DNA from: Chrysoperla carnea
Lineage: Eukaryota; Arthropoda; Insecta; Neuroptera; Chrysopidae
Length of the DNA stretch: 64,000 bases
Assembly (NCBI RefSeq): GCF_905475395.1
Contig: NC_058337.1
Span: 105,208,368-105,272,367, forward strand
Reading direction: 5' to 3'
The notes below the pieces were generated by a model. That model ran no database searches. It was given only the letters and a program-made list of their open reading frames with translations, and was not told the DNA's origin. The stretch's first letter is position 1. Each line of letters starts with the position of its first letter. This document shows positions 4,522 to 60,119 of the stretch, in pieces. Made by a program: the position numbers and the translations under genes.

Positions 4522-5394
4522 ATGAAGAATAAAGAAGAATCTCTAAAAAAAAGTCCAGTCTATAAATGCAAAGCACCCTGTAAATTTGTAAATCCAAATT
4601 CGGTACATTTTGACCAAAATTTAAGCAAATATAAAATCGACCAAAAACGTGGAAAATTAAAAAAAGTACAAGATAGTCTTTTACAACTAGATAAAGGGAG
4701 ACAAAAAAGTTTAGACAGAAGCTTAAGAAACGTAAACCAAGATGATCTTTTAGGTCTATATAGAGTCATAGGGGAGGAATCAGACACAAGCTTAGGAGAC
4801 GTAAAGCAAGATTATTATCTAGGGTTGGATAAAAGACGAAAGAGTTCAGAAAGAAGGTTAAAAGATATCAAACACCATGATCGCCCTGAACTAGATAGAA
4901 AGAGGCGGAAGAGCTTCGAAAGAAAGTTAAGTGATATGAAACAAGAGGATCGTTTAGGACGAAATAGGAAACAAAAGAAGATTAGGAGAAGAGAAAAAAG
5001 ATTAGGAGACTTAAAACAAAATGATCGTCTAAGAATAGAGAGAAGGAGACGAAATAGTTCAGAAGTAAGCTTCGGAAACTCAAATGAAGATAACTCATTT
5101 TCCAGCCTTATACTGAAACAAAGTTCATCAAAGAAACCACATGCAACAGGGCAACCAAGAAGATCCAAAGACGTAGAAATTGACGCTGGTTTAAGTGATG
5201 AATCAAAAGATACAGACCAGGCAGATGGATTAAAAGATACAGGGACAGGAGGTGGATTAAGAGATGTAGAAAGAGTTGAAAAGAAAGAAGAACCTTGTGG
5301 CAAGACATACATACCCGTTATGCTAGAATTTGTTGCGAATGCTTTAATTTTATTGGTAATAGTTGTTTTTATATCTGAAAATTTCTTAGATTAA
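4522..5394 (+). CDS. tail-anchored basic repeat protein, copy 1
   Basis: Single open frame of 290 codons. The protein is strongly basic. Residues about 66-185 hold five degenerate 23-residue repeats built on a core like KLSDMKQEDRL followed by a run of Arg/Lys and Ser. Residues about 220-255 are acidic and Gly-rich, with short DGLKDTG / GGLRDVE-type repeats. A single hydrophobic segment at about 266-284 is followed by only about six residues, so the predicted topology is tail-anchored with the bulk facing the cytosol or nucleoplasm; no signal peptide is seen. It heads a same-strand cluster of four such genes and shares their 3' UTR block (AATAAA at 5496-5501), but lacks the 5' block shared by copies 2-4. 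The ATG used is the first in frame. Family and function are not recognised. The open frames on the opposite strand here are shadows. Confidence 0.72.
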   Translation: MKNKEESLKKSPVYKCKAPCKFVNPNSVHFDQNLSKYKIDQKRGKLKKVQDSLLQLDKGRQKSLDRSLRNVNQDDLLGLYRVIGEESDTSLGDVKQDYYLGLDKRRKSSERRLKDIKHHDRPELDRKRRKSFERKLSDMKQEDRLGRNRKQKKIRRREKRLGDLKQNDRLRIERRRRNSSEVSFGNSNEDNSFSSLILKQSSSKKPHATGQPRRSKDVEIDAGLSDESKDTDQADGLKDTGTGGGLRDVERVEKKEEPCGKTYIPVMLEFVANALILLVIVVFISENFLD

Positions 5395-5483
5395 TTTTCA
5401 GGAGGATTTTTCGAAGTCATCAACCTTAACAATCATTGCACAATTTTCACGAAATATAATTAATTAATTTTTGTTAATGTTGT

Positions 5484-5505
5484 ATACATTTTGTGAATAA
5501 ATATT
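5484..5505 (+). terminator. polyadenylation region of tail-anchored gene 1
   Basis: AATAAA at 5496-5501 is preceded by CATTTTGTG. The same TTTTGTGAA..AATAAA arrangement follows all four genes of the cluster, which supports this as the real 3' UTR element. Confidence 0.6.
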
Positions 5506-6570
5506 ATAATATAATGTGAATTGTTTCGTTTAATATATTTGATTAAGAATACTGGAAATCTCTTCAAATCAAGATCAGATCTATTTTTTCTCGATGGTAA
5601 TATCTTAAACAAAAGTGTGAATTCGTGATTGCAGCAAATGTACAAAAATAAGCCCCCCCCCCAGGTAGCAAAAATTCCCCCTATGAGTTAGAAACAATGA
5701 GATTTAACACTCGAATATATTATAAAATTATAGAAATTTTCGTGATTCATGTTATGTGGGATTTCACTGTTAAGATTTTTTGTAATTGAAGACATAATGT
5801 CAAAATTCAAAGAACTTTTCTTCTCAAGAAAAAAAAAAGTTGTCTTTTGAAAACACAATCCAAAAAAGTGGTTTATATAGGGTATTTTCAGTGCATAATA
5901 CTATGAGGTTTAGAGCCAAATAAAGTTGCTAAGGCGTCAATAAAATTTGGGAAATGTAAGCTTAAATAGCTTCCTTGCCCAAATTCCTTCCTAACTTCCT
6001 AACTGTTTACTGTACCCCAAGTAGGTATTTCAAGGGTATTTCATTATTTGTCAAAAAGGATTATTATTTAATCACAGTTACTATGGGAATGTATGGATAG
6101 TAAAATTTTTTTTTAAATAATTATTTTTTTCATAACTCCAAATTATATTTAAATATAATATGATAAATCAACAGTCAAAATAATCGTTTTCAAAACATGG
6201 ATTAATCACTATCTAACAGAAGACACGCGCAGGAAAATACAAGTTTAAAGGAAGTAAGTTTTATTCAATTTATTTGGCAGAAAGATTCTTTTTGCATTTT
6301 TCAAGTATCTATAATATGAAAGTATTTTTGAATTTGAAAAGTGATTTATTATCACCAAAAGAAAACTTGTTTGAACTTTCATTCTTGGGTTTCTTTTTGA
6401 TAAATATACCTGTTAATCGAAATATTTAAATACAAATAACATTACCTAGAATTTGCTATAGAATCTTCCAATTTAATAATAGAAATGATCTTACCTTACA
6501 AAGCAATAGATTGATCGGGCTTACAAAAACTTATGATTTTCTTAATACTTTTTTTGCTGTAATATTTTTT
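5506..6570. other. intergenic spacer between tail-anchored genes 1 and 2
   Basis: No gene seen. Contains a C homopolymer near 5653-5662 and A/T-rich unique sequence. Confidence 0.5.
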
Positions 6571-6625
6571 GGGAGCGCTAGAGTAAATAATTATCGAATT
6601 TTTAGTTTTCAAATTATGGAACAAA
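6571..6625 (+). promoter_or_regulatory. conserved upstream block of gene 2
   Basis: About 50 bases, including TAAATAATTATCGAATTTTT then AGTT(T/C)TCAAAT, recur almost unchanged upstream of genes 2, 3 and 4. The block ends at an upstream ATGGAA, which here opens a five-codon ORF (6616-6633). It could be core promoter and 5' UTR, or the end of a 5' UTR intron, since it contains the acceptor-like GAATTTTTAG. Confidence 0.55.
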
Positions 6626-6753
6626 ATAAATAATAATAATTAAATGGTTAAACAAAATGAAGGCAATGTTAAACGAAAAGATGAAAGTTAGAAGAAAACT
6701 AAATGATTATAAAATAACAAAATTACTAAATTATAAAATTACAAAAGTAGAAA

Positions 6754-8739
6754 ATGCCAAAAGGTAGATTTGGTTCATGGTTTGGAAAAAAGTTAAAAAA
6801 TAAATTGAAAAATACTGTTGGACAAGGCAGTAACGATAATATTACAAAAGTAGGTAGCAGTATATGTACAGTAGCTATTCGACCATTAAATGACGAAGAA
6901 AAAGAATGCTTAGAACTAAGTGACAATAGTGAAAATAAAACTTGTAGCGATAACAAAGAAGTCACAATGGTTAGACGATATATACAGAAAGGAGTAGAAG
7001 ACGACTTTGGGAAAAAGGACAGAGAACTCAGTGAAGGCAAATCAAATATTTATGCAGACTCAAGTCCCAGTAGAAACAGCGTAAATTTGATAGACTCTGG
7101 TAAATCGGGATGCAAAGAAAACAATCGAAAAGGCTATATAGATCGAATTCAAGAAAAGAGAAAACAACAATATTATAAACAAAAATATCATTCACAAAAT
7201 GATCCCTTAGATTTTTTAAGCTCAGATAAACAAAGCAAAGCGAGTAAAGAATCTTGCATATCTAGAAATCAAAAACATAAAGACAATCCAAATTTTAAAT
7301 TATGTAGAAATGAAGTTGTAGATATTCCCCAAAGTTCCAGAAATGTAACTCCCGATATACAAATCAAAACAGAATCATTCATATTAAAAAATTCTACAGA
7401 ATTAAATAAACAAGGTAAAAAATGTTGTGGAAGAAAAACTCAAGTGCAAGATGCCTTTGACTTAATACTTCCCGATAAACATAGCAAAGCAAGTAAAGCA
7501 ACATTTATCTCAAAAAACGAAAACGAATTTGAAGTAATGAGTGCAAAACCAGAGAAAAAAAGATGTTCTAAAAAAATAAGTCCAATAAAAATCGATCATA
7601 CAAAACTAGATGCAAGAGATCCATTGGTACAAAGTGACCACGTTGAAGCCAAACTACCAAAAAATGGTTATTCGAGAAAAATTCACTCTCACAATGATTA
7701 TGCGCAAACAATACCAAATGTACACACGAACTATATACAAACAATTCCAAGTATACATGCCGATTTTGTACAAATAATTCCGCAAAGAGCATCGCTAAGC
7801 CACCATCAAGATGATTTTCTAAATAGAAGTCTAAAGGAACTATTTTATCAACCAGAAGAAAAGATTTCATCATATAGATCAAATCGACATGGGCGATCAC
7901 TAAAAGAAAAGGGTTCCCGTCAAGGTATGTCTTTTAACAAGAATCGCGAGCGTCAAGCTCATAAAGCAAAATATAAACAGATCTTAGCAGATATTCTGGT
8001 TGAAGACTTTAAGAAAAAGACTAAAGGAAAAAAATATCAGGATGAAAGTTTAGAGGAGGACAGTGATTATTCATTCCGTAAATGTAAACAATCTTGTAAA
8101 TTAAAACGTCACGCTGTTGGTCTTGTAGAAGATAGTGAAGATGACAGGAAATATAAACAACCAAGAAGAACAAAAAGTCGACATAAAGCAATCATAGTAA
8201 AAAGCAACGATGATAGAAAATTTAAGAAATCGAGTAAAACAAAAAAATTTAAGCCACGAGGGGGAAGTATTTTAGACATGCTTAGTATTTCCAGCATTTT
8301 ATCAGATAAAAATTTAGGACACATGAAAAAAGGTACGAGCACGCATAGTAAATCATCATGGCGAAGAGGAAGTATTACAGATGCATCTAGATCAAAACAT
8401 CCGAATAGAAAGAAGAAATATAAGGAAACATATAGATTGAAAAGACAAAAGGAGAGTGACACAACAAGCTTGGAAGAAGTAGAAACAATTACAAGCGATG
8501 GAGACTCGAGTTTGATATTATATCATCCAAAATCCGTAAGCAAGTCACAAAAGAAATCTCTAAATGAAATTGAAACAGGACCAATATTAACAACCCTAAC
8601 ACCTGCTCAGCAACCGTCTATTGTGTATATGGATTTAATTATGAAATTTATTGCGCTTACATTAACAATATTTGCGTCTGGGTTCTATATAAAGCAATTA
8701 TTATATCCTGAAGATTCTTCCTTTTTTAACTTCCTATGA
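6754..8739 (+). CDS. tail-anchored basic repeat protein, copy 2 (largest)
   Basis: Single open frame of 661 codons, very rich in Lys, Ser and Asn. Internal repeats are visible: SSDKQSKASKESCISRNQ near residue 155 returns as LPDKHSKASKATFISKNE near 240, and an IQTIPSIHAD-type motif is repeated near 325-345. Residues about 442-470 contain a CKQSCKLKRHA...EDSEDDRKYK module that reappears at the N-terminus of copy 3. A hydrophobic segment at about 626-646 (DLIMKFIALTLTIFASGFYI) and a 15-residue tail end the protein; the same motif ends copy 3. No signal peptide. AATAAA lies at 8825-8830. I chose ATG 6754, which follows a short non-coding leader that also contains a 16-codon upstream frame at 6643. 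The family is unknown; a membrane-tethered, intrinsically disordered protein is the most the sequence allows. Confidence 0.75.
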   Translation: MPKGRFGSWFGKKLKNKLKNTVGQGSNDNITKVGSSICTVAIRPLNDEEKECLELSDNSENKTCSDNKEVTMVRRYIQKGVEDDFGKKDRELSEGKSNIYADSSPSRNSVNLIDSGKSGCKENNRKGYIDRIQEKRKQQYYKQKYHSQNDPLDFLSSDKQSKASKESCISRNQKHKDNPNFKLCRNEVVDIPQSSRNVTPDIQIKTESFILKNSTELNKQGKKCCGRKTQVQDAFDLILPDKHSKASKATFISKNENEFEVMSAKPEKKRCSKKISPIKIDHTKLDARDPLVQSDHVEAKLPKNGYSRKIHSHNDYAQTIPNVHTNYIQTIPSIHADFVQIIPQRASLSHHQDDFLNRSLKELFYQPEEKISSYRSNRHGRSLKEKGSRQGMSFNKNRERQAHKAKYKQILADILVEDFKKKTKGKKYQDESLEEDSDYSFRKCKQSCKLKRHAVGLVEDSEDDRKYKQPRRTKSRHKAIIVKSNDDRKFKKSSKTKKFKPRGGSILDMLSISSILSDKNLGHMKKGTSTHSKSSWRRGSITDASRSKHPNRKKKYKETYRLKRQKESDTTSLEEVETITSDGDSSLILYHPKSVSKSQKKSLNEIETGPILTTLTPAQQPSIVYMDLIMKFIALTLTIFASGFYIKQLLYPEDSSFFNFL

Positions 8740-8805
8740 TAGTGTTTTTTTGTTGCTGATATCAAAATATTCGTACATTATTTTTCCAAAAAAAAAAAAA
8801 TTCCC

Positions 8806-8842
8806 ATTGTATTCATTTTGTGAAAATAAAATTAGAAACTAT
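8806..8842 (+). terminator. polyadenylation region of tail-anchored gene 2
   Basis: Contains ATTCATTTTGTG followed by AATAAA at 8825-8830 and TTAGAAAC. This block is nearly identical behind gene 4 and similar behind gene 3. Confidence 0.6.
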
Positions 8843-8879
8843 TACTGCTATTATGAGAATGATTTATTAATAAGGAACT

Positions 8880-9340
8880 AGCCCATGTAGTTTTTAAGTT
8901 TCTAATAAACAATAGTGTTACCAATTTGACTGGAAATATCCAATTTGATTGGAAATATTTCATGCACCAATCAGATTAGTAAAATAATAATTGATTTTGG
9001 ATAAATTTTTGGGAGTAGCTGTGTTATAGACGAATGTTTTGCGTGAAATCATACGGAACATATTGTGGCTCGTAAAAGTATTTATAATCCAAAAACGTAT
9101 CAATACAAAAAATGTTACCAGCAATTTCGCTTAATCACCAAATCAAACAGAAACCATGAATTTCTTACTGGTCGAAAGACACCAAAGTATCTTTAGTTTT
9201 AGAATTTCGTAAAGAATTCACAAATTCTGTTGATCCAATGATTTTGGGTCCGGTATATATTTAAATACGCAAATTTAACTCTACAGGGAAGGGTCATATG
9301 CATTTTTTTTTCTCTTATTGTTAGTAAAAATGTTATAATT
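8880..9340. repeat. spacer with diverged interspersed repeat
   Basis: The stretch at about 9200-9245 (TTAGAATTTCGTAAAGAATT then GATCCAATGATT) resembles the direct repeats at 49194-49261 and 49277-49342. Part of 9130-9170 (AATCACCAAATCAAACAGAA) resembles 40455-40490. This marks a dispersed, diverged element in the spacer between genes 2 and 3. Confidence 0.4.
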
Positions 9341-9562
9341 TGAATATGTTTGTTTTTTGTGTATAAATAATTAATGAGATCTTCTATGAAAGTTTCTCCT
9401 CAGCAAACGAAAAAATTTGTATATAGATTTGGAAAAAATATTTTTAAATTTGATGTAAACGTTTTTTTTTTAAATATGGCTTTATTTAAAAATATTTAGT
9501 ATTTTAAAGAATATCTTTGACTAGAGTCATGTTTTTTAATGACATTTCTAACAATTTTTGAA

Positions 9563-9613
9563 AGGACGCTAAAGTAAATAATTATCGAATTTTTAGTTCT
9601 CAAATTATGGAAC
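9563..9613 (+). promoter_or_regulatory. conserved upstream block of gene 3
   Basis: Same block as upstream of genes 2 and 4. Here the upstream ATGGAA frame (9607-9627, six codons) overlaps the main start at 9620 in another frame. That overlap would be expected to influence start choice if the block is transcribed. Confidence 0.55.
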
Positions 9614-9619
9614 AACAAA

Positions 9620-10483
9620 ATGACTAAGAACAAAAAATATAAACAATTGGATAGATCAATATACCCAGGAGAAAATTTTGGAGAGGAAAGTGAAAACGAT
9701 CCATTTCGTAGATGTGGACAATCTTGTGAATTAAAACGCCTAGCTGAGAGTCTATTACCAGACAGTGATGATGACAGAAAATACAAACGTTTAAGTCTAT
9801 CAGAAGCAAGAGATGCAAATTTGACTAGTAATTCCAGTGCTGTATCACTATCAGATCCAAGATTGGTACAAAAGAAAAAATATAAAGATACAGATAAATC
9901 GAGACCTCAGATCAGAAAAAGAAATTATAAGAAAACTTGGAAATCAAAAATACGAAAGAAAAGTGATGGAGAAAACTTGGAAGAAACTGAATTCACTACA
10001 ACAGATGATGAAAAGTCAAATTATTCTAATATCATGCTAGATGACTCAAAGAAAGAAGTTGAGCTTATAAAACAACCAAACAAGAAGCCAAAAACCGTCC
10101 CTGATACAGAAAACCTGTCTCCAAAAGAAGTTGGTACGGGAAAGCAACCTCTAAAAGAAAATGGTACAGAGAAGCAACCTCCAAACGAAGCTGGTTCAGA
10201 GAAGGAACCCCCAAAAGAAGTTGGTACAGGCAGGCAACCTTCAAAAGAAGTTGGTAAGGAGAAGCAGCCTCCAGAAGTAGTTAGTACAGTCAAGCAACCC
10301 CTAAAAGAAGTTAATACAGGACAACAACCTACAACAATTACACCAGCAATAGAACCAACTGAACGATCGTCTATTGAGTGCATAGATTTAATTCTTAAAT
10401 TTACTGCGCTTACATTAGCAATATTTGCGTTTGGTTTTTATATTTCGCAATATTTGAGCTGTGGTTATTATTATTCCAATTAA
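9620..10483 (+). CDS. tail-anchored basic repeat protein, copy 3
   Basis: Single open frame of 287 codons. Residues about 31-62 (CGQSCELKRLAESL...DSDDDRKYK) match the middle of copy 2, so this copy resembles the C-terminal part of copy 2. Residues about 165-245 form seven to eight degenerate decapeptides of the GTGKQPxKEV type, a 30-bp minisatellite within the coding sequence. The protein ends with a hydrophobic segment at about 255-275 (DLILKFTALTLAIFAFGFYI) and twelve residues, closely matching copy 2. No signal peptide. The start at 9620 sits thirteen bases after an upstream ATG in another frame. AATAAA at 10529-10534 lies in the shared 3' block. Function unknown. Confidence 0.72.
   Translation: MTKNKKYKQLDRSIYPGENFGEESENDPFRRCGQSCELKRLAESLLPDSDDDRKYKRLSLSEARDANLTSNSSAVSLSDPRLVQKKKYKDTDKSRPQIRKRNYKKTWKSKIRKKSDGENLEETEFTTTDDEKSNYSNIMLDDSKKEVELIKQPNKKPKTVPDTENLSPKEVGTGKQPLKENGTEKQPPNEAGSEKEPPKEVGTGRQPSKEVGKEKQPPEVVSTVKQPLKEVNTGQQPTTITPAIEPTERSSIECIDLILKFTALTLAIFAFGFYISQYLSCGYYYSN
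10136..10340 (+). repeat. 30-bp coding minisatellite
   Basis: Seven to eight degenerate copies of a 30-base unit encode GTGKQPxKEV-like decapeptides (for example GTEKQPPNEA, GSEKEPPKEV, GTGRQPSKEV) in tail-anchored protein 3. Length polymorphism would be expected here. Confidence 0.75.
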
Positions 10484-10511
10484 TTTTTCGACTTTCTTTT
10501 CGTTTTAATTT

Positions 10512-10545
10512 TGTATTCGCTTTGTGAAAATAAATTTATAAAACA
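10512..10545 (+). terminator. polyadenylation region of tail-anchored gene 3
   Basis: GTATTCGCTTTGTGAA followed by AATAAA at 10529-10534, matching the blocks behind genes 2 and 4. Confidence 0.55.
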
Positions 10546-10666
10546 TTGCATACTATATGAGTTTAAACTGTTGAATTTTAATTTTGTTTAATGTTTAAAA
10601 ATATCTTTTAAAAGAAAAAAAAATTCCATAGGCAATATTTTATCATAATTCTTCTTGATTATTATT

Positions 10667-10718
10667 TGGGGACGCTTAAATAAATAATTATCGAATTTTT
10701 AGTTTTCAAATAATGGAA
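10667..10718 (+). promoter_or_regulatory. conserved upstream block of gene 4
   Basis: Third copy of the upstream block. Here the upstream ATGGAA frame is reduced to ATG GAA TAA (10713-10721), five bases before the main ATG at 10726. Confidence 0.55.
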
Positions 10719-10725
10719 TAATAAA

Positions 10726-12458
10726 ATGAATAATCAAAGCAATAGTAAGCACTCGTATGGACCAAAATATAAGCTTGAAAGCCATGGAGAAGAAAATGTA
10801 GAAAAAAGTGGAGTTGAAATTTTAGTAAAAGAAAATAGACATGATACAAAATTTAATAAATTCAATAAAGCAAATAATAGAGTTGAAATCGTAGCAGAAA
10901 AAAATAATGATGCGAGCAAATGTAAACAATCTTGTGAAACTCTAAATCCAGTTATATTTTTAGTACAAGAAAATGACGATAACTTAAAACATAAACAGTC
11001 CTTAGAAGCTGAACATATAGGTATAAGTTTAGTGAAAATAAATATGACAATGATAGAAAATGTAATCAATCTAGTGAAGCTAAATATTCAGTTGAAACTT
11101 TAGTGGAAGAAAATATAGTTAACAGAAAAGATAATAAGATCTGTGGAGCCAAAAATCTAGTTGCAACTGTTTTAGAAAGAAATGAATCTGATATTAAACA
11201 CAAACAATCCAGTGAAGCTAAAAATTCAGTTGATTCTTGTGAAAAAAATAAAATTGTCAGAAATTGGTATGAAATCTGTGCAGCTAAAAATCCACTTGAA
11301 ATTCAATTAAAAGAAAATAAAGTTGACAGTAAATGTAATGAAATCTGTGAAGCCAAAAATCAAGTTGAATCCTTAGAAGAAGGATATGACTTTGATATAA
11401 AACAGAAACAATCATCTGGAGGAAAAAATTTAGTACAAAACAATGATGAAAATAAAAAATTTAAAAATTCCAGTGAAGCTAAATATCCAGTTGAAAATCT
11501 AGTGGAAGAAAATAAATTTGACAAAAAATGTAATGAAATCTGTACAGCCAAAAATCTAGTTGAAACCTTAATAGAAGGAAATGACAATGATATAAAACCC
11601 ATACACTCACCTGTATCACAAAATCTAGGTGATAGTATAGTACAAAAAAATCCTTATGAAAAATATGAACAATCCAGGGAAGCTAAATATCTAGTTGAAA
11701 ATCTAGAAGAAGGAAATAAAGTTGACAGTAAATGTCATTCAATCTGTGACGACAAAAATCTAGTTGAAACTCGAGTAGAAGATGATAAAAAATCCTATGA
11801 AGCTAAATATTCAGTTGCAGCCCATGTAGAAGAAAACGAAGATGAGAGAAAATGTGCAACAGAGCCCTGTGAAGCAGAATATTCACTTGAAATTATAGTA
11901 GAAAAAAGTGAAGACGAAAAAAAAAGTAAAAAATCTCTTAAAACAAAAAGTCCAATTAAATCTCTAATAAGCAAATGTAAACACTTTTATAGATCAAGAG
12001 AGCGTAAACGCAAATGTAGTAATTCAATATCCTGGGAAGGAATTATTACAGATTTATCTAGCTCAAAATCAAGTCAAAATTTAGAGCAAGAAAAAGAATG
12101 TGAAGGCTCATCGACGTCAGAAGAAAGCTTTACAGATTTGTTAAGTATTTCTGACGTAGGAGGAACAGCAAGCGACGATGAAGTAGAACTAGCTGAAATA
12201 AATTATGTCTATTTTAAAGATAAAATAGTTGATGAAGACTCAAAAATAGACGTCATTAATGAAATGAAGCCAGATAATAAAATCAAAAATGTTGACCAAG
12301 GGCAACAAACCGTTCCAGTAATTGCAGGAACTTGTCAGGGTATGCCTATTGTGCACGTAAATTATTTCTATAAATACGCTATAATTTTGATGACTTTTGT
12401 GGCTGGATTTTATATAACGTGGTATTTGATATATGGTGATTCGTATTTACTATTATAA
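10726..12458 (+). CDS. tail-anchored acidic/Cys repeat protein, copy 4, with apparent frameshift
   Basis: Two overlapping open frames (10726-11103 and a frame open from about 11036 to 12458) belong to one gene. The 23-24-residue repeat pattern (EAKxLVExLVEEN..D.KC..(S/I)C) runs through the first frame up to about 11034, then continues in the next frame, which reads ENKYDNDRKCNQSSEAKYSV. Loss of a single G at about 11034 explains the shift. The remaining roughly 470 codons have no further stop, so the break is recent, a sequencing error, or avoided in the cell. Many repeats carry paired Cys. The protein would be about 577 residues and ends with a hydrophobic segment (YFYKYAIILMTFVAGFYITW) plus about ten residues, homologous in position to copies 2 and 3. 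AATAAA lies at 12573-12578. A short intron around the shift is a less likely alternative. Function unknown. Confidence 0.68.
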
Positions 12459-12554
12459 TTGGTGTTCTTGATAATTTTCCACTATGTTTTTCTTTTATAA
12501 TATAAAAATTGCGTTCATTTGATTGCCACAAAAATCGTTTCCATTTTGTAAATG

Positions 12555-12590
12555 TTAAATTTATTTTGTGAAAATAAAATTAGAAACTTT
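12555..12590 (+). terminator. polyadenylation region of tail-anchored gene 4
   Basis: TTTATTTTGTGAA then AATAAA at 12573-12578 and TTAGAAAC, nearly identical to the block behind gene 2. Confidence 0.6.
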
Positions 12591-15745: not shown

Positions 15746-16936
15746 ATGAAAATTTCAGTAGTGTTTGCTTTTGTTACAATTGTTGTGTTATTTCAATGCG
15801 TTTACGCTGATGTTAAACCAATAACGTTAACAGAATTGGAAAAAAGTTCAGATATACAACTTAAATCAGATTCAGGTACACAATTCACTTCATCAAAGTA
15901 ATTAATTTACTAAATTTTTAAACAAAACGTCTTGTCTACTTCAACGTTATTTTGTTAAAAATTAATCTGCGGTCGCACCCTAAATTGCTCCTATAGCACC
16001 CTAAAGTGTTCCTACTTTCACTGTTGTTTGACGTTCCCCTGCGTGGCTGGCCGCTGTATTATACAAAGGGTACTTTTAGAGTATTTCTCATTTAGTTTTA
16101 TACGCTCGTAGCCTAAAACAATGTACTTCTTTTTAAATATTTTTAATGATAGCGTTAATAAAATTGGCTAAAAAATTTATCTATTTAGAAATTATGTTGA
16201 AGAATATTATACAGAGTCTTCAAAAAGTATTGAACCGCCCGCGGAAGTTGCAAACTAAAATAAGACGTAAAGGATAATTTATAATGAAAAAAAAATTTTT
16301 TTTGAAGTTAAACAAAAATTATTTATTTGCGACAATTGACAAAAAAATTTCTTTTTCATGACAAAAACATAACTAGATTAGTCTCTTATAAAAAAAAAAT
16401 CATCAATTTTTAATGGAAACACTTTTTCGAAAATTATAGAACAAATTTGCATTCAATACCTACCTGTCTTCAAAAAAAAAAAAAAAAAGTTTTAAACAAA
16501 AAATGATGTTTTTTTTTATAAGGAATAACTTTCTAACTTTTGAAATAACTAAGGGAAAACTTTTTAACAATTTTGTCCAATCTCGAAAATTTTCGAAATT
16601 CAGACCAGCTTTCTTTACTTTAAATATGCTTCAACAAATTTCTTTGTCTTAAAAGAAAATGTAAAAAACAAAAGAAAAATTGTACTTACAATTTACCAAA
16701 ACTTATAACGAAAAGTTTCTTTTTCAGTTTTAGGCGAAAAATTATTACGTGTGCCACGGACCGTTTATCGTGTAAATTACCCGAATCAAGGAGGATATGG
16801 CGGCTGTTACTCATGTGGTGGATATGGTGGATATGGTGGATATGGTGCATATGGAGGAAACAGAGTAGGTGGTAGTTATTCTCAATCTTCATCGTCTTCT
16901 TCATCCTCATCTTCCAGTTACGGGAAAAGGAAGTAA
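15746..16936 (+). CDS. secreted Gly/Tyr/Ser-rich peptide A (two exons)
   Basis: Coding exons are 15746-15875 and 16728-16936 (phase-1 GT-AG intron, 852 bp), giving 112 residues. Exon 1 encodes a signal peptide (MKISVVFAFVTIVVLFQCVYA, likely cut before DVK) and a conserved segment, DVKPITLTELEKSSDIQLK. Exon 2 continues with VLGEKLLRVPRT, then a GGYGGYGGYG-type stretch with two Cys, a Ser run and a basic end, YGKRK. The exon structure and both conserved segments are shared with genes B and C, which confirms the splice choice. The low-complexity Gly/Tyr/Ser composition is typical of secreted structural, silk-like or cuticle-associated proteins, but no known domain is present and function is not established. 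AATAAA occurs at 17063-17068. Confidence 0.75.
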
Positions 16937-18110: not shown

Positions 18111-20238
18111 ATGAAATTAGCTGTAGTGTTTGGTTTCATTACAATTGTGGCGTTATTTCAATTTGCTTACGCAGATGTTAAACTATTAACGTTAACAGAG
18201 ATCGAAAAAAGTTCTGATTTACATCTTAAACCACCACAGAAAGATTCAGGTACGAAATTTTCAATGGATATTAAATTTATCGAAATGGTTTACTGAGTTA
18301 AAAACGCCGTATAAAACTAAATTTTATTTTGTTTTTCTTTACTATTGCAAGGTAGTTGCTTGAGTTGTTTTATCGAGGCCAACTTTTTGAACCTTAAGGT
18401 GTATTTTCGAGCCTAATAGTACAGTTTAATTGATTCGAATTTACATTTTTGCTAAATATAAGTTTAATCAGAATTAAAAGATCGAACTACTTAGATTAAA
18501 CTGTTTGCTTTAAAAATTTACTTTTTTTTAATGTTGGCCTCGATAAAACAACGCAAGTATAATAAATACTCTCGTTACGCACCGTTTTCCATGCGATAAA
18601 CAGCTTATTGCCGGTTGCGTGTAAATTGTTAAGACTCAAATTTCCAATTGAGTGTCGTAAGTAAACTGATCACACTCAATGAGCAATTTGCATTTTACCA
18701 TTTCTCTTAAAATTATAAGCCCACTTCGATCGGGATTCTAAATTTGCTCGTGTGTGCAATTGCCAGTTTTTTTCTACTTTTTGCACAATATACCACTTAC
18801 TTCGCTAATAAAGAGGACTCTTTTGCATATTTCCAATCTAGAAAAATTTGATACAACTTTAAAAACGAATAATTTTCAAATTTATAACAAGTGAAATTTA
18901 CAAAATTTTTAAAACCCCTGCCAATTTTTTTTGGTACGGAACCCTAAAATCGCACTTGAAACATAGCTAAGAAACATACACATTGTGGTCAAATTTAGAA
19001 CACCCCTTTTTTTAGTTCGGGGGTTAAAAAATTAAAATTAATTCTTCGATTTGATTACTTAAACAATTTTTTATAATATTGTCCAAATTATTCATCACGG
19101 TTAGACCTTGAGATCATAATGAAGTAAACCATTTGTGACTGTTCTTGTCTTTTTTTAAAAAGATAATATAACGTTAAAGTTTGATAATAAAGAAAATTAG
19201 GTGTTTTTTGAGTGAATATAAATCAAACAGTAAAATATTTTTTTTGATTTTTATATAGATTTTTAATTTGCACATACAGTTCGGTAAAAAAAAGCAGAAA
19301 AGTTGCAAGTTTCGAAATAGTTGGGAAATAATAGTTCAAATAGCAATTTTAATTATAATCTCAGTTTTTTTAATACCACATAGTTTAAAAAATAAAAAGA
19401 ATATTTCTAAAAAAAAGATTATCTTTTTTTAGCAGATCTTGATTCCCTTGACATTCAATATCATGCAAGATCAAATAAATATATTAATGAAACAGTTTCT
19501 TACAAAAAACTGACAGCTCTGATATTGTTATCCAAAATTTGAGATAAACAAGTTTGTATATTATTTTAACTCGATTAGCGACTTCTTCAGAAACTAGCCT
19601 TTTTTTGAACAAAGTATTTATTAATTTTGTCAAAATTAGAATACATAAACATATTTTTCGAATGTAAAACGCTACAAGTGGGCTTTTTCATTCTATTTTT
19701 GCCCAAATTATTCGCACTTCGTTGAAATCTTTCCAAAATAACTCGAAAATTAAGACATACAATTCAATATTATTCTTGGATGTCCTGTTTAACTCCCTTT
19801 ACTGAGATTTCCCTGATTACTTAAAATAATTGACTTTCTTATTTGAAGCGGCGCTTGTTTCGATTGACTCTTTCACATATAAGTAATAAAAATTCTTTTT
19901 TTTTTTTTAAACGTTTATAATATAATTTAAAAGAAAAAAAATGAATTTTGTTGGAATTTATTTAAAAATCCAGGAATCTTCAACAAAACAATTTTTTTTT
20001 AGTTTTAGGCGAACAATTATTACGTTTACCACGAACACACCATAAGAAGTTTAAATATGGTCATGGTGGAGGTAATGTTTGTAACCAATGCGGTGGCAAC
20101 CATGGAGGTGGCTATGGAGGCTACCCGAGCCATGGAGGATATTATAGTGGTTACCCTGTGGGTGGTGTTTCAGGTAGCTTTTCTCAATCTTCATCACAAT
20201 CATCATCCAGTAGTTTTGGATATGGTAAAAAGAAATGA
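18111..20238 (+). CDS. secreted Gly/Ser-rich peptide B (two exons)
   Basis: Coding exons are 18111-18249 and 20003-20238 (phase-1 intron, 1753 bp), giving 124 residues. The signal peptide (MKLAVVFGFITIVALFQFAYA) and DVKLLTLTEIEKSSDLHLK are close to A and C. Exon 2 reads VLGEQLLRLPRT, then a His/Gly-rich stretch with a CNQC motif, GGYGGYPSHGGYYSGY, a Ser/Gln-rich tail and GYGKKK. The intron holds a small foldback element (18359-18557) and an interspersed repeat (18888-19030). Short open frames that read through the donor or begin inside exon 2 in another frame are shadows. Function unknown; a secreted structural or adhesive peptide is plausible. Confidence 0.75.
18359..18557. mobile_element. 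small foldback MITE in intron of gene B
   Basis: The ends CTTGAGTTGTTTTATCGAGG.. and (reverse complement) CTTGCGTTGTTTTATCGAGG.. are inverted over about 25 bp around a roughly 150-bp core. No coding capacity. Confidence 0.6.
18888..19030 (+). repeat. interspersed repeat ending in CGGGGGTTAAAAA, copy 1
   Basis: Starts with AAGTGAAATTTACAAAATTT, contains TCGCACTTGAAACATAGCTA and ends ACCCCTTTTTTTAGTTCGGG then GGTTAAAAA. Related copies lie at 20788-21427, 35519-35760 (opposite strand) and 42432-42655. It resembles the 3' part of a widespread insect retroelement or SINE. Confidence 0.6.
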
Positions 20239-21692: not shown

Positions 21693-23275
21693 TTATTTCT
21701 TTTTGCCATTGCCCCAAGAACCAGAACTAGAACTAGCACTAGACTGTGATTCAGAATAACTTATTGCTGGTCCGCCGCCATAGACTTGACGACCTCCTTG
21801 ACACGAATTACAAGTCGATGGGGGCTGCGGAGCGACGTATCCACCACATCCACTTGTACATCCACCTCCGGATCCACCGTATCTCTGTTTCTTCCATGAA
21901 GTTCGTGGTAGACGTAATAATTTCTCGCCTACAACTGCGAAAAACGTCACCAAATTTTAATTTTGCATGAAAGCATTTCGAATTGATTTAACAACAGACT
22001 AATAGTTCCTAATACGAAGAATGGGTCGAGATCTTGATATAAAAGGGCGTTAGTTTCTTTACGCCCTTTTTGTGCTGATTGGTTTTTTATTTTTATTTCG
22101 CAGTGTTGTTACCATACCCAAAAAATTTAATACGACTCAAATTGAGAGGTTTACTTACAAAAATTCGAACACGCTGATTCGGCACTTTATGCACTATTAC
22201 GCACTTTCGTCCGTAGATTCTCTGTACGACCATTTATTACCTACATTAAACTGGACTATGAACCGAGTTTTTATTATCTATCAGCGAAGGTGATGAATTC
22301 TTCAACTTACACAGAAAACATTATTCAATTCAATTTCAACATAAGGACCTGATCTGTATTCTGATATTCCCGTAAATCAGCAGAGTCGAAGACGTTCGGA
22401 TTAAATATTAGAGAATAACATTTTTGTAACAAATTTATTGCGTTTACATTATAAAATTCAAATTTGGCATCAAAATGGTCATGTTTTAACAACGCTTATG
22501 TGTTTACTGTAAATTAATGGAAGCGTTTTTCTCAAATCACACTTTGCGAACTTACGACACGAATTAACGACGAACTTACTTATTCAACCCTCCTCCTCAA
22601 TTGTAAGTATATAAAATCGAAAGATTTGAAATCGGTGTGATCGATGACTTGCGGTAGTGGACATATTTAAAAGTAGACAAAGTCCTGTATTAACTCATAT
22701 GTCATAATAATAAAAAAATTTTATTGGGAAAATCATTTTGTCATGGTACAACCGGCGGCTACAAATAGAGCTACGATAACATGCTTAAATTGAGTTTCAG
22801 CAGATGTTGAATAAATAGATACATATTAATAAACCATAGTAATTTACAACAACACTGTTCACATGTATGATCACGGTTGTTTTTTGTCTAATTTAAGCCT
22901 GCTTATAAATGTCAAATTGACTACATGACATCATTAAAGATTTTCCCAATACGTATTTGCCATGAGGTTTCTATAATGCGAAATAATTTTGGATTTTTTT
23001 CTAAGGAATTATCATCAATTTTTGCTCATTAAATAAGAAATCGATAAGAAAAAAAAACTAGTGAAGTTAGAGTGTTTTAAATATAGTAAAATATTTCGAT
23101 ATTATCCATTAACCAAAGAGTTGATGAAAACTTTAGATATCGTACCTGTTTCTGGTTTAAGTTGTACATCAGAATTTTTTTCCACTTCTGTTAACGTTAT
23201 TGGTTTAACATCAGCGTAAACAAATTGAAATAACACTACAATTGTAACAAAACTAAACACTACTGATAATTTCAT
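21693..23275 (-). CDS. secreted Gly/Ser-rich peptide C (two exons, reverse strand)
   Basis: On the reverse strand the coding exons are 23275-23146 and 21934-21693 (phase-1 intron, about 1.2 kb), giving 123 residues. The signal peptide (MKLSVVFSFVTIVVLFQFVYA) and DVKPITLTEVEKNSDVQLK match gene A closely. Exon 2 begins VVGEKLLRLPRTSWKKQRYG, then a Gly/Cys stretch (CTSGCGG, CNSCQGG), a Ser-rich tail and NGKKK. Exon lengths match gene A (exon 1 is 130 bp in both). It is inverted relative to A and B, so the array arose by duplication plus inversion. A TATA-like CATATAAAAAC (reverse strand, about 23366) lies about 90 bases upstream. Function unknown, as for A and B. Confidence 0.75.
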
Positions 23276-53076: not shown

Positions 53077-56000
53077 ATGTCAACCACTAAAGTTAAACAG
53101 GACCAAATTAAATCAAAAAGTTTTATGGAAAAAGTATTTGGATTTAGTTGGAAAGATGTTAGTTCATTCGAAAATTTGGTTAAATATATGTATCGACCGA
53201 CAGATCCATCCAGTTTAGGAATTATTCGATTTTTTTATGGTAAAAATTGTTGTTTAATTGTTTTGCGCATGATCGATTATTTGTTTTAATTGTTGGCTCT
53301 TAACATAATCAGTTTCTGCCAGATACCTATTTGTCAGTGGGAACACCGACCTTTATCAAACAATTGCGGTATCATTCCGAATGTAGATATTGTTTATTTA
53401 CAATTTTTACGTGCTCATCAATGGTATCACGAGTACTCTAAAAAGTTCGGTATTACTATTGGCAAGCATGTGACGGAAACTGCACAAACCAATAACGAAA
53501 TATATTCGAAAACTACTTCTAAATAAGTAGAAATATTGGTTCATTTTCAAGAAGAATCAAACGTATATTATTCTGCCATCAATCTTCAAATCAGCATTCG
53601 ATTTCTTCAATTTGAAGTAATTTTTGACTTGAAGAATGGAGAACAATAGTGTAAATAGTTATAATTGTTTTTTTGTAGGTTTATTAATGCTATTAGACAT
53701 TTCGGAAGAACGTGGTGGTGCTGAAATTGATTTACGGTGGGGAGAACCACGTGATTGTCATTTTCCATTAATTTCATATATACGACCAATGTCGCTACCG
53801 TATATGGGATTAGTTTACGGATTTCTATGGCTAGGTATGTAAGTTTCAGAAGTAGTTTTAGTAACAAATTTTGATTATATTCACCACGATTTCAATTGGT
53901 CGCCCCCGTAATTTCTTATCATTAGTATTTTCAAACTCTGGGTGTTGGATTCTGAAATGTTGCGATGCGGTTCTGTAAATTTTCATCTAGTGAAATAAGA
54001 ACTTTTCACAGGAAAAGGTTCAAGAATAACGAAATAGTTACTAAGCAAAATTAATCTTTTTTGGGATTAACGTTAAGATATGGAACAAATAAAATTATTT
54101 AAGCTCTTCTTTTATTAAATTGTTTTAATTGCCCGGCGGCCAATTAAAGAAAATAAATTATTATTTCGAGAATTTTTTATTAAATGCGAATTAATATTTT
54201 TTTTTAATTTTTATTTTAAAGGTGCCTTGGGTATAATGCTTGGATATAAATTTCATCTAAGTACTACAATATTTTTAATACCATATTGGTATTTATTCTT
54301 AATAGATAAATCATTTTGGAATAATCATAGTTATTTATTTGGTATATGTGCCATATTATTTGTAGGAACAAAAGCCAATTACTATTTGTAAGTAAAAATT
54401 TGTCTACTGATTTATTTATAGAGACCAAAAAATGATCAAACAAATATTTTTTTTTTGTAAAAAAGTAGAAAAAGTTTATAGAATTGTCATCCCAAAACGG
54501 GAACATGTGTTAATACCTACATAAAAAAAACTACCGAAGTAATAATGAAAAATTGGTAATAAGGTTTTAAGTCTTGAACAGATTTGTCCTTAAAAAATTT
54601 TCTGAAAAATAATAAATGATAGTGCATCTAATTTCGTTTCACAGATATCTAGGTACTCATACGTGCTCTTGATCTGGGAAGATAATTCTTTATCATAAAT
54701 AATATTGAACTTCACCAAGTAAAGTTTTCTAAAATATATAATTAAATATAAGTATTTATTAAAATGAATAAAATATAAGAAAAGAATTCACAGATTACAA
54801 ACGTTATTTAGGCAAAGTGTGCTATGTTCGTGACGCAGTAAATATACACATGCATAATTAAAGTTATTACATTACACATCATATTATATTTACGAAAATT
54901 TTATTTCGGGCGTTTTTGTTTCTCTTTTAAAACTTTGTATCTTTCAAATTATTATGAACAAATAAAAATAAAAACAGTTTTATAATATAACTTATCTGCG
55001 ATCTTTCCATTTTTGTCAAAAAAATTTTTTGGTCAACATCTCAATGCTAAAAACGTGAGGCTTAATTAATGTTTATCTATTTCTAAAAAATTATTTTGTT
55101 CCAAATTTTTCAAAATATATTTTTTGTTTTTTGCAAGCTTTGACTCTTTATGGGAAATTTATAATAAAAATATTTTACCTAAACATATTGAATTGATATG
55201 ACGATAGTGGCCTTATAACCTTTATTCATCGAAGTTTGAATGTGGAATATTTCGAAAACTATAAATTCTAAGTTTCTTATCATTCAATTAATCTGTTCAG
55301 TGATGTAGAAATAACGAGATTAAAATTACGTCATTTATCACAACTTGAAATATTAAGAAATATATTTTTATGCAAATTTCCAAAAAGATAAAAAAATACC
55401 AATAGTAGATTACGACCTAAATTTAATAAATTTTTTATTTTTCAGTTCTATAGATGGATTGTTAGATAATAAAAAAAGAAATGCAGAAATTCCATTTTGG
55501 AATTATTTCATTTTAAAAACACAATTTTTCCTGTTATATTTTTTGGCAGGTTTAAAAAAAACTGATGTCGAATGGCTGGAAGGATATGCTATGACAAATT
55601 TATCAAGGCATTGGGTATTCGATCCCTTTAAGTGAGTACCTATATGTACCTAATTAATAAAGCCGCCGGTTCACAATTATTTAATTAAGGATAAACTCAA
55701 AATAAAACGAATTATCGTAGTTTGAAATAATTGATTTTCAACAAAATTTTTGTGATTTTTACGATTTTATTTCTACTTAAAAAAATTTCAAAAAATCAAA
55801 AAGAAAATTTTTGCCTTGGATTTCTTAGACTAATTTGGATCAAAAGTAGTCATTCTATAAATTCAACTTTATTTTTTGTAAATTTAATATTTTGTGAGCA
55901 GGACCTTTTCCTATTTTACTGTTGTAAATAATTATTAAACATTTTAAACTTTTTCAGATTATTTTTAACAATAGATCAAATAGATTTTTTAATTGTCCAC

Positions 56001-58248
56001 TGGTTTGGATTTATTTTTGATCTAACTGTTGGATTTTGGATGCTTTTTGATTTAACTCGACCATATGCAATGATATTTTGTGTTACTTTTCATTTTATGA
56101 ATTCCCGTCTCTTCAGTATTGGTAAAATATTCCTTTCGTTGTTATAAGGCCATTTTCTTATCAAAATTTAGTTTCGATGATTATACATATTAAAAAACAA
56201 AAATCCTTCAATATCACCGAAACTGAATTTCGATAAAGAAATGATAAGATCTTAATAATTAGTTGATTTACTTTCATAATTTCAGGAATGTTTCCATATG
56301 TTTGTTTGGCTACATTGCCACTATTCTGTTCCGTTCGATGGCCAAGGAAACTTGAATATAAATTTAAGAAAATTATTCTAAAACAAAAAACACCGGTGGT
56401 CTCGAAACCCCAACCAAGCAAGGCTTGTATTTACGACAAAGAAACAGTAAATAAATTTAAGGATAAAATTGAACTAAAATCAGAAATTTCGTGGAAACAT
56501 AAATTGGTCGTTTGTCTATTATTGACACATTGTGGTCTGCAATTATTTTTACCATACTCTCATTTTATAACCAAGGTATATGGAAGTTTATGCAATACTC
56601 ATTACAGATTTGAAATGAACGCGTATTGTTTTAGGGTTATAATAATTGGACAAATGGTCTTTATGGATATTCATGGGATATGATGGTTCATGCTTGGGAT
56701 ACGATTTTAGTAGTTGTTAAAGTTGTGGATAATAAAAGTGGCCGTGAACATTTTTTGGATCCTGAAGCTTGGGTATGTTACAAAGAAATATCACAGTTTT
56801 AAAAAATTACAGAAAATCTACCTTAGTTACTCTGTTATACAAATTATGTTCTCAACCTTCTGATCAAAAATTAGATCATTCTGATGAAAAATTCTCATGG
56901 CCACAAAAATTTTTAACGAGTAGTTTTCGAGCTACGAGCAATCAAAGCTACATTTGGGTAGATTTGTAAAGTCAGTTTCACAGAAACCCATTTTCCTAGT
57001 GATATACAAAAACTATAATAAATTCGTAGCTTTGATCGCCCGTAGCTCGAAAACTACTGGTTCAAAATTTTTGTGGACGTGAGAGCGTTTGATCAGAAGG
57101 ATCCAAAGAACATTTTAGAATGAGTTGGAAAAAGTTTTAGAGAAAGCCATTTTCCTAACTAATATTTCGGGGTCCTTTCGTTCATGCAACAGAGAAAAAA
57201 CAAATCCGGAAAACAAAATGTTTTAACTTATTTTTTTAATTTCAGACCTTAAACGATCGATGGACCAAACATGGCGACATGATGTATCAATATGCACATT
57301 GTTTAAAAGATAATTTAATCGCAGAATATCGTCAATTGGACGAAGTTAGCAAAAACAATCCAAATTATTTAACATCGGAGAATGTATCAATTTACATAGA
57401 TGTTTGGTGTTCATTAAATGGACGCTTCCAGCAAAGAATGTTCAATCCAAATTATGATCTATTAAATGTTAATTGGAGTCCATTTAAACCAATTGAATGG
57501 TTGATGCCATTACTGACGGAATTCAGTGGATGGCGAACCGATTTAAATGAAATTCAGAAACATGTTTATTCATGGTCGAATTATTCAGATGTGATTTTTG
57601 TTGCAGACTTTCCAGGTAACAGCATTCAAGTATTAAACCTAATAATTTGATTATCGTTAGAAATAAAAAATTAAGAGACTTATTACTATCTTTGACCTTT
57701 TACTCTCTTAGACCTATATCCCCGAAACTAGCCGCCCAAACATGATACAGTTCGTTTCAAGAAAATCGATGACATACACAAAAATTTTGCTAATCGATTT
57801 ATATATCTTTCTAGGTTTATATTTAGAAAATTATATCTCACCAGATTTGTCAAATGTCTCATTAACGGTATTAGAAGGTGAAGTTTTCTTCGAAATGGAA
57901 GACCCTAAACGCGCCCAATCAATTGGCAAAAAACTATACAAAGGTCAATCGATACCAATACATGCTGGCGACTTCCATAAAGTTCATACAACATCAACAA
58001 CACCAGCTTCCTACATGTACACTTATATCAATCAAACTAAAATGGAAGCTGATTTATTGTCAAGTCATCAGACAAGTACGATAATTGAGGATCAAAATTA
58101 TTACCCAATGAAATCCCCATTTCCTTTAATTGAAGATGTCAGCTTACGTATTGAAAATATGAAAACTATGTTTCATGTTATAATTAATTCTATTTTACAT
58201 GTTTTACATGGAGTACCAATGGTTCGAAGAGTTAAAATATATGATTAG
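53077..58248 (+). CDS. GGCX: vitamin K-dependent gamma-glutamyl carboxylase, nine coding exons
   Basis: Coding exons are 53077-53239, 53679-53834, 54222-54387, 55446-55631, 55958-56121, 56286-56575, 56635-56772, 57246-57615 and 57815-58248. All introns are GT-AG and all phases join into 688 codons. The family enzyme is an ER membrane protein that converts Glu to gamma-carboxyglutamate while epoxidising vitamin K hydroquinone. Seen here: RPTDPSSLG near residue 41, LDISEERG at 60-67, the pair Cys81/Cys440 matching the family's conserved disulfide (human Cys99/Cys450), WNNHSYLFG with His142 (human His160), LKKTDVEWLEGY with Lys200 (human catalytic Lys218), and GYNNWTNGLYGYSWDMMVH at 376-394. Several hydrophobic segments fill residues 50-370, and a luminal C-terminal region follows. 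It is about 70 residues shorter than human, mostly at the C-terminus. A TTTTTCAG at 53049-53056 suggests a 5' UTR intron. It is convergent with COMMD3. Confidence 0.95.
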
Positions 58249-58319: not shown

Positions 58320-58645
58320 TAGTTAGGAAAAACAAATGAAGATGCGTTTCTCAATGCTCCGCTTTCTGATAGTTTTTCCTATGGCAATAGCTACCAATGA
58401 ACGCTCCTTTTCAATTATGCGCCGTCTTAAAATATACCTTAGATCGACAATGTCTGAAGATTGGCAAAACAGTTTTGACTTGCTCAAAATTCCTTACAAT
58501 ATAAAAGTCAATGCGAACAGAGTTTTTTCTGTACCTCGCAGAATTAAATTATTTCAAAGTAGTGATAGAGTATCGTGATTCGACCAAATAAAATCGAAAT
58601 CTCTTACTCGAAAAAAGATTTTCTTGTTTTTATTGACTTTATGAT
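58320..58645 (+). mobile_element. hAT transposase 3' remnant, copy 2 (downstream of GGCX)
   Basis: The frame 58336-58578 reads LRFLIVFPMAIATNERSFSI, then MRRLKIYLRSTM..DWQNSFDLL, the hATC dimerisation region of hAT transposases; the rest of the enzyme is absent. Its 3' flank (CCTCGCAGAATTAAATTATT, CTTACTCGAAAAAAGATTTT) matches copy 1 at 30060-30350. It begins about 75 bp after the GGCX stop and contains the first plus-strand AATAAA (58587-58592) after that stop, so it may form the GGCX 3' UTR. Confidence 0.7.
58587..58592 (+). terminator. candidate GGCX polyadenylation signal
   Basis: First AATAAA downstream of the GGCX stop codon; it lies inside the hAT remnant. Inferred from position only. 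Confidence 0.35.
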
Positions 58646-58736: not shown

Positions 58737-60047
58737 TTATTGAGTATTTTCTGTTAATTTTTCAACATGATGGCAAATATCTTTTAGCTTAGAAACTAAA
58801 TCAGTTAACTCTAAAACATCGCAACTGAACGATATATACGTTGGTTCATTTTCATTTGTTTCTGGATTATATTTTAAAGCTACAAGACGTATTCGATAAA
58901 TTGCATCTGTATCGACTGAAGCAGCTTCTGACGTCTACAATATTAAAAGACATAATAAATAATAGCTCCAAACGTTACAATAAATTTGAATCTGTTAGCA
59001 AAATAGACCTTTTTCACATTTTTTTTCTTTTTTTTTAAATGAAAGTAAATGTCTAGATAAATGGGTTAATTTTTTTCCCCGATTTTTTTGAAGCCATATG
59101 ACCGAGAAAACAGACAATGAAAATCATTGAAATTCAAATTGGCGAAAACGATCCGGAAGCACACGATGTTACACGAAGGTTGGTTTGACGTCATTTAAAG
59201 TTGATAATAATGATATATTAATACAACTGTTGACACTGTTTTATTGTCATTGCTTGTCAGATTCACATCATAGATCATGTGTGCGGTGGAGCCAAAAAAA
59301 AATCGTTTTAAAATATTTCAAATATTGTGACTTTTTAACAATTTTTTTCATAGTGTTTTTATTGCTAAAAATGCGTAATTATTGAGTTACAGGCTCTACT
59401 CGACCTATATTTTCATTAAAAAATTATCAAAAATCATTTCTATTTTTCATGAAAAAGGTCTATTACACAACAATAATTTATGATAGCGTGTGTAGGAATT
59501 TTCATATAGTTAGTTAGCTCAAGATTTATCTAATATATAATAATGTTTTTTACCTTTACAATACAATCTAATTTCCAATTAAGACCTTTTAACATAGGTT
59601 CAGATAATATTGTAATAGCGGATAGCTTCTTTTGGACCGCCGATTTAGATTCATTACAAAACTTGGTAATAATCTGACCATAACTCGTATTTAACTTTAA
59701 TGTTTCAGAACAAAATTCTTTCAAATTTTCTTCTGTTAAATCGTATCGAGCATTTTGAATTATTAAATCCGATAAAGCTGCATATAATTCTTTAACCAAA
59801 TCTGGTTTTGATGAGGTAATACTTGAAACACCTAAAAAATAAAATCCGATTACTGTAGCACACTCCTTGAAATATGTTTTTGTGATAACTTACTGGCTAA
59901 TTTGTGTGGAGTTAAAATATTTTTTAATGCTAATTCTAAGATATCATTTAGTAATTCATTAGGAATTAGATTTGTCTGTTGTAATAACATTAAACTATTT
60001 TTTATTTGTGGGCTTATTTCAATACCAGATTGTATTTTAGACTCCAT
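58737..60047 (-). CDS. COMMD3: COMM domain-containing protein 3, three exons
   Basis: On the reverse strand the coding exons are 60047-59894, 59831-59554 and 58934-58737. Introns are GT-AG with consistent phases, giving 209 residues (human about 195). COMMD proteins form the COMMD ring of the Commander complex, which works with CCDC22/CCDC93 in endosomal recycling of membrane cargo. Seen here: an N-terminal helical domain (residues about 1-130, with IKNSLMLLQQTNLIPNELLN then VKELYAALSDLIIQNARYDL) and a C-terminal COMM domain from NWKLDCIVK (Trp137) through YISFSCDVLELTDLVSKLKD. The match in length, order and the WKL / FS.....L..L...K pattern fits COMMD3 best among the family. I chose ATG 60047; upstream in-frame sequence to about 60118 has no ATG. 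The interval between exons 2 and 3 contains further short frames that are not coding. Confidence 0.88.
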
Positions 60048-60119
60048 GTTTACTTTTATTTGACTTACAATTACTGGAGTACATTCTATTAAAAGTATCA
60101 ATCGGATATACAGAGAGGA

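Follow-up and report, generated by a model that had tools for sequence, protein, structure and literature searches.

A small tandem family of probably tail-anchored repeat-protein genes with a nearly invariant upstream block in the lacewing Chrysoperla carnea

A stretch of 64,000 nucleotides (nt) of the lacewing Chrysoperla carnea (assembly GCF_905475395.1, contig NC_058337.1, positions 105,208,368 to 105,272,367 of the forward strand, hereafter referred to as the window), presumably located on chromosome 1, raises the question of whether four consecutive repeat-rich coding regions near its start represent a single gene family and, if so, which of their parts have been retained and which have been free to change. 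In a preliminary description, made from the sequence alone, the locus was presented as a tandem family of four tail-anchored repeat proteins belonging to no known family. This view is upheld here for genes 2, 3 and 4, which are without a Pfam match, while the membership of gene 1 is only suggested. It is considered fairly probable that the locus represents a small tandem family, generated by copying of a whole transcription unit, whose members encode tail-anchored proteins of the endoplasmic reticulum (ER) or nuclear-envelope type, in which changing repeat bodies are only weakly constrained while a regulatory block has stayed nearly fixed.

Four coding regions, all on the same strand, are indeed present within positions 4522-12458. 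Gene 1 (4522..5394, + strand) is an intact open reading frame (ORF) of 290 amino acids (aa) with basic repeats of 22-23 residues; gene 2 (6754..8739, +) is an intact ORF of 661 aa, whose body is rich in Lys and Ser; and gene 3 (9620..10483, +) is an intact ORF of 287 aa with decapeptide repeats, the array of which is composed of 30-nt units at 10119-10334 (+). The lengths previously given for these three genes stand, and all three ORFs are far longer than expected by chance, since the longest stop-to-stop frame among 30 random 64-kb sequences, simulated with a first-order Markov chain derived from the window, encompasses only 178 aa. Gene 4 is represented by two frames, of which the first (10726..11103, +) runs from ATG to stop and contains approximately four diverged 23-residue units, and the second (11013..12458, +), without an ATG near its start, is composed of 23-residue units with a higher period of 68 residues (204 nt). 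Repeat periods above the shuffle threshold were obtained for gene 1 (48, 23 and 45 aa), gene 3 (20, 10, 30 and 40 aa) and gene 4 (68, 23 and 45 aa, among others), and the periodicity of gene 2 is marginal only (z of 3.2 at lag 40, with a threshold of 3.2). Furthermore, the first codon position is enriched in G, at 0.24-0.34 versus 0.13-0.14 in one intergenic control.

Judged by sequence comparison, genes 2, 3 and 4 are paralogues of one family, having in common a C-terminal anchor, a repeat unit and both flanking blocks. In blastp searches, for which the database consisted of just the five locus sequences, the anchors of genes 2 and 3 exhibit 52% identity over 64 columns (E = 1e-14) and their bodies align over 182 columns with 30% identity (E = 7e-12); genes 3 and 4 match over the repeats (E = 1e-6) and over the anchor (E = 7e-5), while gene 2 matches the first frame of gene 4 (E = 6e-5) and, more weakly, the second (E = 0.008). 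The kinship of the anchors is independent of database size, since the scores of the last 70 residues in the pairs 2/3, 2/4 and 3/4 were reached by 0 of 1000 half-wise shuffles (for the pair 2/4, a score of 49 versus a shuffle maximum of 46). When twelve units of the gene 4 second frame were combined into a profile, its full scores in genes 2 and 3 and in the first frame of gene 4 were reached by none of 500 shuffles, and its best single-unit scores by 1, 2 and 0 of 500, respectively. The divergent middles formerly ascribed to the family are therefore an overstatement for genes 2-4, in which a 23-residue unit and, between genes 2 and 3, alignable bodies can still be detected. In gene 1, the gene 4 unit was not detected (200 of 500 shuffles as good).

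The 5' flank of genes 2, 3 and 4 contains a 31-nt block at 6584..6614, 9575..9605 and 10681..10711, respectively (all +), delimited by identity and genome search. The three pairs are identical at 30, 31 and 30 of the 31 positions, the identical pair being that of genes 2 and 4, and identity around the block drops to 3-13 of 20 positions beyond approximately 40 nt on either side. When the assembly (559,487,470 bases in 337 contigs) was searched with up to 3 mismatches allowed, the block was found at three sites, one at each of genes 2-4, and its reversed control at none; a 42-nt version returned the same three sites. Synonymous differences between genes 2 and 4 amount to approximately 60% (46 aligned codons), and with a simple synonymous rate the chance that an unconstrained 31-nt stretch would stay identical in these two genes is approximately 6e-13. 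Gene conversion restricted to the block is an alternative to constraint. The block is most likely a core promoter common to genes 2-4, in which TAAATAAT and TCAAAT could be TATA- and initiator-like motifs. The leader of gene 2 (6643-6770) also contains several upstream ATGs before the main start, and by eye one short upstream frame, in a different phase, runs across the main start.

The 3' flank of the same genes carries a second block, of the poly(A)-signal type and containing AATAAA, at 8807..8839 (gene 2), 10511..10543 (gene 3) and 12555..12587 (gene 4), all on the + strand. Pairwise shuffles and a matrix identified it at the three genes, as did a genome search at genes 2 and 4, where its 26-nt core is exact; one other site, with 2 mismatches, lies on a different contig, and the gene 3 copy has diverged past the mismatch limit of that search. 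The similarity between the gene 3 and gene 4 copies is weaker, with 7 of 500 shuffles as good.

A poly(A)-type block for every ORF would also suit an arrangement with a single transcription unit that has genes 2-4 as its alternative last exons or as closely spliced members, the 5' block then being a 3' splice site that was duplicated and not a promoter. The block contains the splice-acceptor-like TTTTTAG and sits just ahead of the ORFs, and the frame of gene 3 is open through it (stop-to-stop from 9578). However, identity past the AG is about as high as before it, and at genes 2 and 4 stops located between the block and the ATG keep the block out of the coding frame (the stop-to-stop frames begin at 6751 and 10714). 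Furthermore, no upstream exon was identified, albeit without a systematic search for one. Taken together, we regard this arrangement as rather unlikely, and a family of separately duplicated transcription units remains the preferred reading.

How gene 1 relates to this family is a separate matter. The C-terminal anchor and the flanking blocks had been described as common to all four genes, which holds for genes 2-4, whereas gene 1 is without an anchor match and without the 5' block, yet possesses the 3' block. Its anchor matches those of genes 2-4 with a blastp E value of 0.19 or worse, does not appear at E <= 20 when 1367 ORFs of the window, each at least 25 aa long, are searched with the anchor profile of genes 2-4, and attains scores that were reached by 10 of 1000 shuffles against gene 3, 68 against gene 2 and 337 against gene 4. 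The 5' block was not found at gene 1 (499, 297 and 332 of 500 shuffles as good), and the length of its repeat period resembles that of the others, with sequence kinship being undetectable. The 3' block copy is located at 5480..5512 (+), 86 nt past the stop codon, its end being approximate and two bases shorter than in genes 2-4. Using the matrix from genes 2-4, in which a gap of up to 2 bases was allowed (chosen after a gap had been seen in the pairwise alignments), this copy ranks 4 among approximately 128,000 positions and is outscored by the three training sites alone, and its pairwise scores were reached by 3, 5 and 5 of 500 shuffles. The evidence resides in its position and not in its score, the next site elsewhere scoring 15.6 versus 16.4. 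Based on the 3' block and on the layout, it is possible that gene 1 is a very diverged member of the family.

The length of 577 residues previously assigned to gene 4 does not correspond to a single ORF: counted from its ATG (10726) through the stop (12458), the region comprises 1733 nt, which is no multiple of three, and the earlier figure looks like a length divided by three. The first frame stops at 11103, the second, which carries most repeats and the anchor, is open from 11013 onwards, and the coding frame seems to have been lost near 11.03 kb. On paper, 94 GT-AG pairs (40-400 nt, unfiltered for splice-site quality) keep the frame open. Splicing across the break nevertheless seems unlikely, because repeat units reach close to it from both sides: in the first frame the last unit extends to residue 91, in the tested piece of the second frame the first full unit begins at residue 13, and the units are, as judged by eye, in phase across the break. 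An allelic or assembly indel is an explanation equally as open as splicing.

The ratio of nonsynonymous to synonymous substitution rates (dN/dS) was obtained by simple counting from short, partly saturated and AT-rich alignments, and the values are consequently rough. The estimates are 0.65 (95% bootstrap interval 0.33-1.27) for the gene 2/3 anchors, 0.57 (0.33-0.95) for the gene 2/3 bodies and 0.44 (0.10-0.91) for the gene 3/4 anchors, all three being below 1, with bootstrap probabilities of a ratio of at least 1 of 0.108, 0.017 and 0.017, respectively. Counts without bootstrap are 0.589/1.191 for genes 2/4 and 0.72/1.125 for genes 1/3, the latter from 34 codons of doubtful homology. The diversifying or relaxed evolution suggested at the outset can thus be narrowed: relaxed evolution fits ratios of 0.44-0.65, and positive selection is not indicated, dN/dS being below 1 in the alignable stretches.

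A locus in decay, i.e., one consisting of relics of a family losing function, with gene 4 already a pseudogene and repeats drifting freely, would be in agreement with the gene 4 frame break, with the rather high dN/dS (1 falling within the gene 2/3 anchor interval) and with body charge and length that are not conserved. It is less readily reconciled with three intact ORFs well beyond chance length, with dN/dS below 1 in 3/3 bootstrapped comparisons, or with a 5' block that is unchanged over 31 positions in genes 2/4 where synonymous sites differ by approximately 60%. We therefore doubt that decay explains the locus and retain the weakly constrained tandem family.

As regards the encoded proteins, topology was assessed by hydropathy only (Kyte-Doolittle 19-residue mean of at least 1.6). 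One hydrophobic region, near the C-terminus, is present in each of genes 1, 2 and 3 and in the second frame of gene 4, and none at the 19-residue threshold in the first frame of gene 4. The anchors correspond to residues 268-284 of gene 1 (6-residue tail), 628-644 of gene 2 (17-residue tail) and 257-273 of gene 3 (14-residue tail), and to a C-terminal segment with an 8-residue tail in gene 4; their 17-residue hydropathy is 1.9-2.8 and their tail charge 0 to -2. By the same measure, genes 1-4 are without a hydrophobic N-terminal start, the highest 11-residue hydropathy among the first 50 residues being 0.31, 1.37 (a moderate value), 0.30 and 0.48, respectively. The hydropathy profiles indicate that the proteins of genes 2-4 are probably tail-anchored. 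They resemble tail-anchored proteins (GET/TRC40 clients) in their single hydrophobic segment approximately 20 residues or less from the C-terminus and in the lack of a hydrophobic start, but differ in their long low-complexity repeat bodies, in the lack of an accepted match in Pfam (genes 1-3 and the second frame of gene 4) or in PDB sequences (gene 2 and the anchor profile), and in that their insertion is predicted only. The membrane segment of tail-anchored proteins lies within approximately 30 residues of the C-terminus, as do the hydrophobic segments of genes 1-4. A C-terminal helix followed by a short tail is also found in KASH-type nuclear-envelope proteins; however, KASH peptides have a proline-rich ending, unlike the C-termini of the locus proteins (NFLD, FNFL, YYSN and YLLL), which are also without a Pfam match.

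The net charge of the bodies, with the last 45 residues excluded, is +24 in gene 1, +49 in gene 2, +8 in gene 3 and -20 in the second frame of gene 4, and that of the first frame of gene 4 is 0. The strongly positive values of genes 1 and 2 would suit basic bodies that link bound nucleic acid or microtubules to a membrane, like those of a protein of the nuclear envelope or one that shapes spermatids, but this is distinctly unlikely given the near-neutral gene 3, the neutral and acidic frames of gene 4 and the lack of any Pfam domain above cut-off, and the span from +49 to -20 disfavours one charge-based binding function for all bodies.

Protein searches of the lacewing's own genome at E <= 1 returned matches only within this locus, with limited sensitivity: gene 4 was not recovered with gene 2 or gene 3 as the query, nor was either of these recovered with gene 4, and remote copies may therefore exist elsewhere in the genome. 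No Pfam domain above cut-off was found in genes 1-3 or in the second frame of gene 4, the matches to RcsD_ABL and ZW10_C (gene 2) and to CTHRC1_C (gene 4), with E values of 0.045-0.12, being far under the cut-offs. A search of PDB sequences, covering gene 2 and the anchor profile, returned for gene 2 one row with an E value of 0.82, which was not accepted, and for the anchor profile two rows of Tako8 at E = 0.0009, which concern profile positions 6-20, ahead of the membrane segment, include no stretch that passes alone, and were taken as chance. A viral or prokaryote origin was likewise rejected: in one scan of each collection, the pattern of the genes 2-4 alignment matched 126 viral and 108 prokaryote stretches, of which 0 were confirmed. 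Among the papers surveyed on lacewing genomes, lacewing orphan genes, Chrysoperla testis transcriptomes and insect tail-anchored repeat proteins, no description of the family was seen, which is no proof of absence.

If the locus is indeed a tandem family, a single transcription unit, apparently without introns and extending from core promoter to poly(A) signal, would have been duplicated repeatedly to give rise to it. The protein would consist of a long hydrophilic repeat body in the cytosol, probably disordered, held by one C-terminal membrane helix that would be inserted post-translationally, most likely into the ER or nuclear envelope because the helix is hydrophobic and the tail without positive charge. 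In mammalian cells, as outlined in PMC5450235, a hydrophobic helix combined with a low tail charge favours the ER. The bodies would change through gain and loss of repeats from a common 23-residue unit, itself seen in genes 2-4, and would be under weak purifying selection, while the 31-nt block, as a common core promoter, would keep the copies expressed in the same cells. A tether with an extended brush- or linker-like body probably matters here, and the fixed sequence of the body probably does not, because body charge runs from +49 to -20. A bolder and less probable proposal is that the 31-nt block represents a locus-private core promoter or start-site element fixed by selection across paralogues, the conserved function being the expression pattern and membrane tethering, with the protein free to change in nearly everything except its membrane tail. 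Male germline expression is a guess, prompted by evolutionary style only.

Several points weigh against a family of intact, tail-anchored transcription units. The gene 2 anchor is moderately hydrophobic, with D and K near its start, and the ER targeting rule derives from mammals. The dN/dS interval of the gene 2/3 anchors includes 1. Given TTTTTAG in the 5' block, an upstream non-coding exon is possible, intronlessness being a reading of single ORFs only; and gene 4 is broken in the assembly.

Beyond the locus, the window contains three related small Gly/Ser-rich coding stretches at 16724-16933 (+), 19981-20235 (+) and 21696-21941 (-), which have GE[KQ]LLR[LV]PRT at their start in common, as well as a Ser-rich end that includes G-K-[KR]-K. 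Identity to the first stretch is 59% for the second and 49% for the third, no Pfam match was found, and the three perhaps form a second small peptide cluster. Exons resembling vitamin K-dependent gamma-carboxylase are located at 54119-57650 (+), with a Pfam HTTM domain at 54119-54388 and the lumenal domain at 57240-57647, and just past them, at 58327-58578 (+; Pfam E = 7e-5), lies what is likely left of the dimerisation region of a hAT transposase. ORF pieces at 59530-60134 (-) resemble a COMM-domain protein, the only piece tested (59853-60134) being without a Pfam match. The upstream neighbour outside the window (L009, 680-1804, +) is a 374-aa ORF with a helix-loop-helix domain, presumably neurogenin-like.

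Tandem fast-evolving insect repeat-protein genes share with the present locus a local cluster of single-ORF genes, repeat turnover and the lack of a Pfam match, whereas the unusually sharp, nearly invariant 31-nt upstream block sets this locus apart. The locus is real but ordinary, i.e., a small fast-evolving lacewing tandem family whose noteworthy feature is its locus-private upstream block. For now, it extends, at a descriptive level, the long list of fast-evolving gene clusters in insects, and it offers a compact case of gene duplication and repeat-body turnover in which regulatory sequence has outlasted protein sequence. If the proteins are made, the family would allow one to ask what role is played by a membrane-tethered repeat body whose sequence hardly matters.

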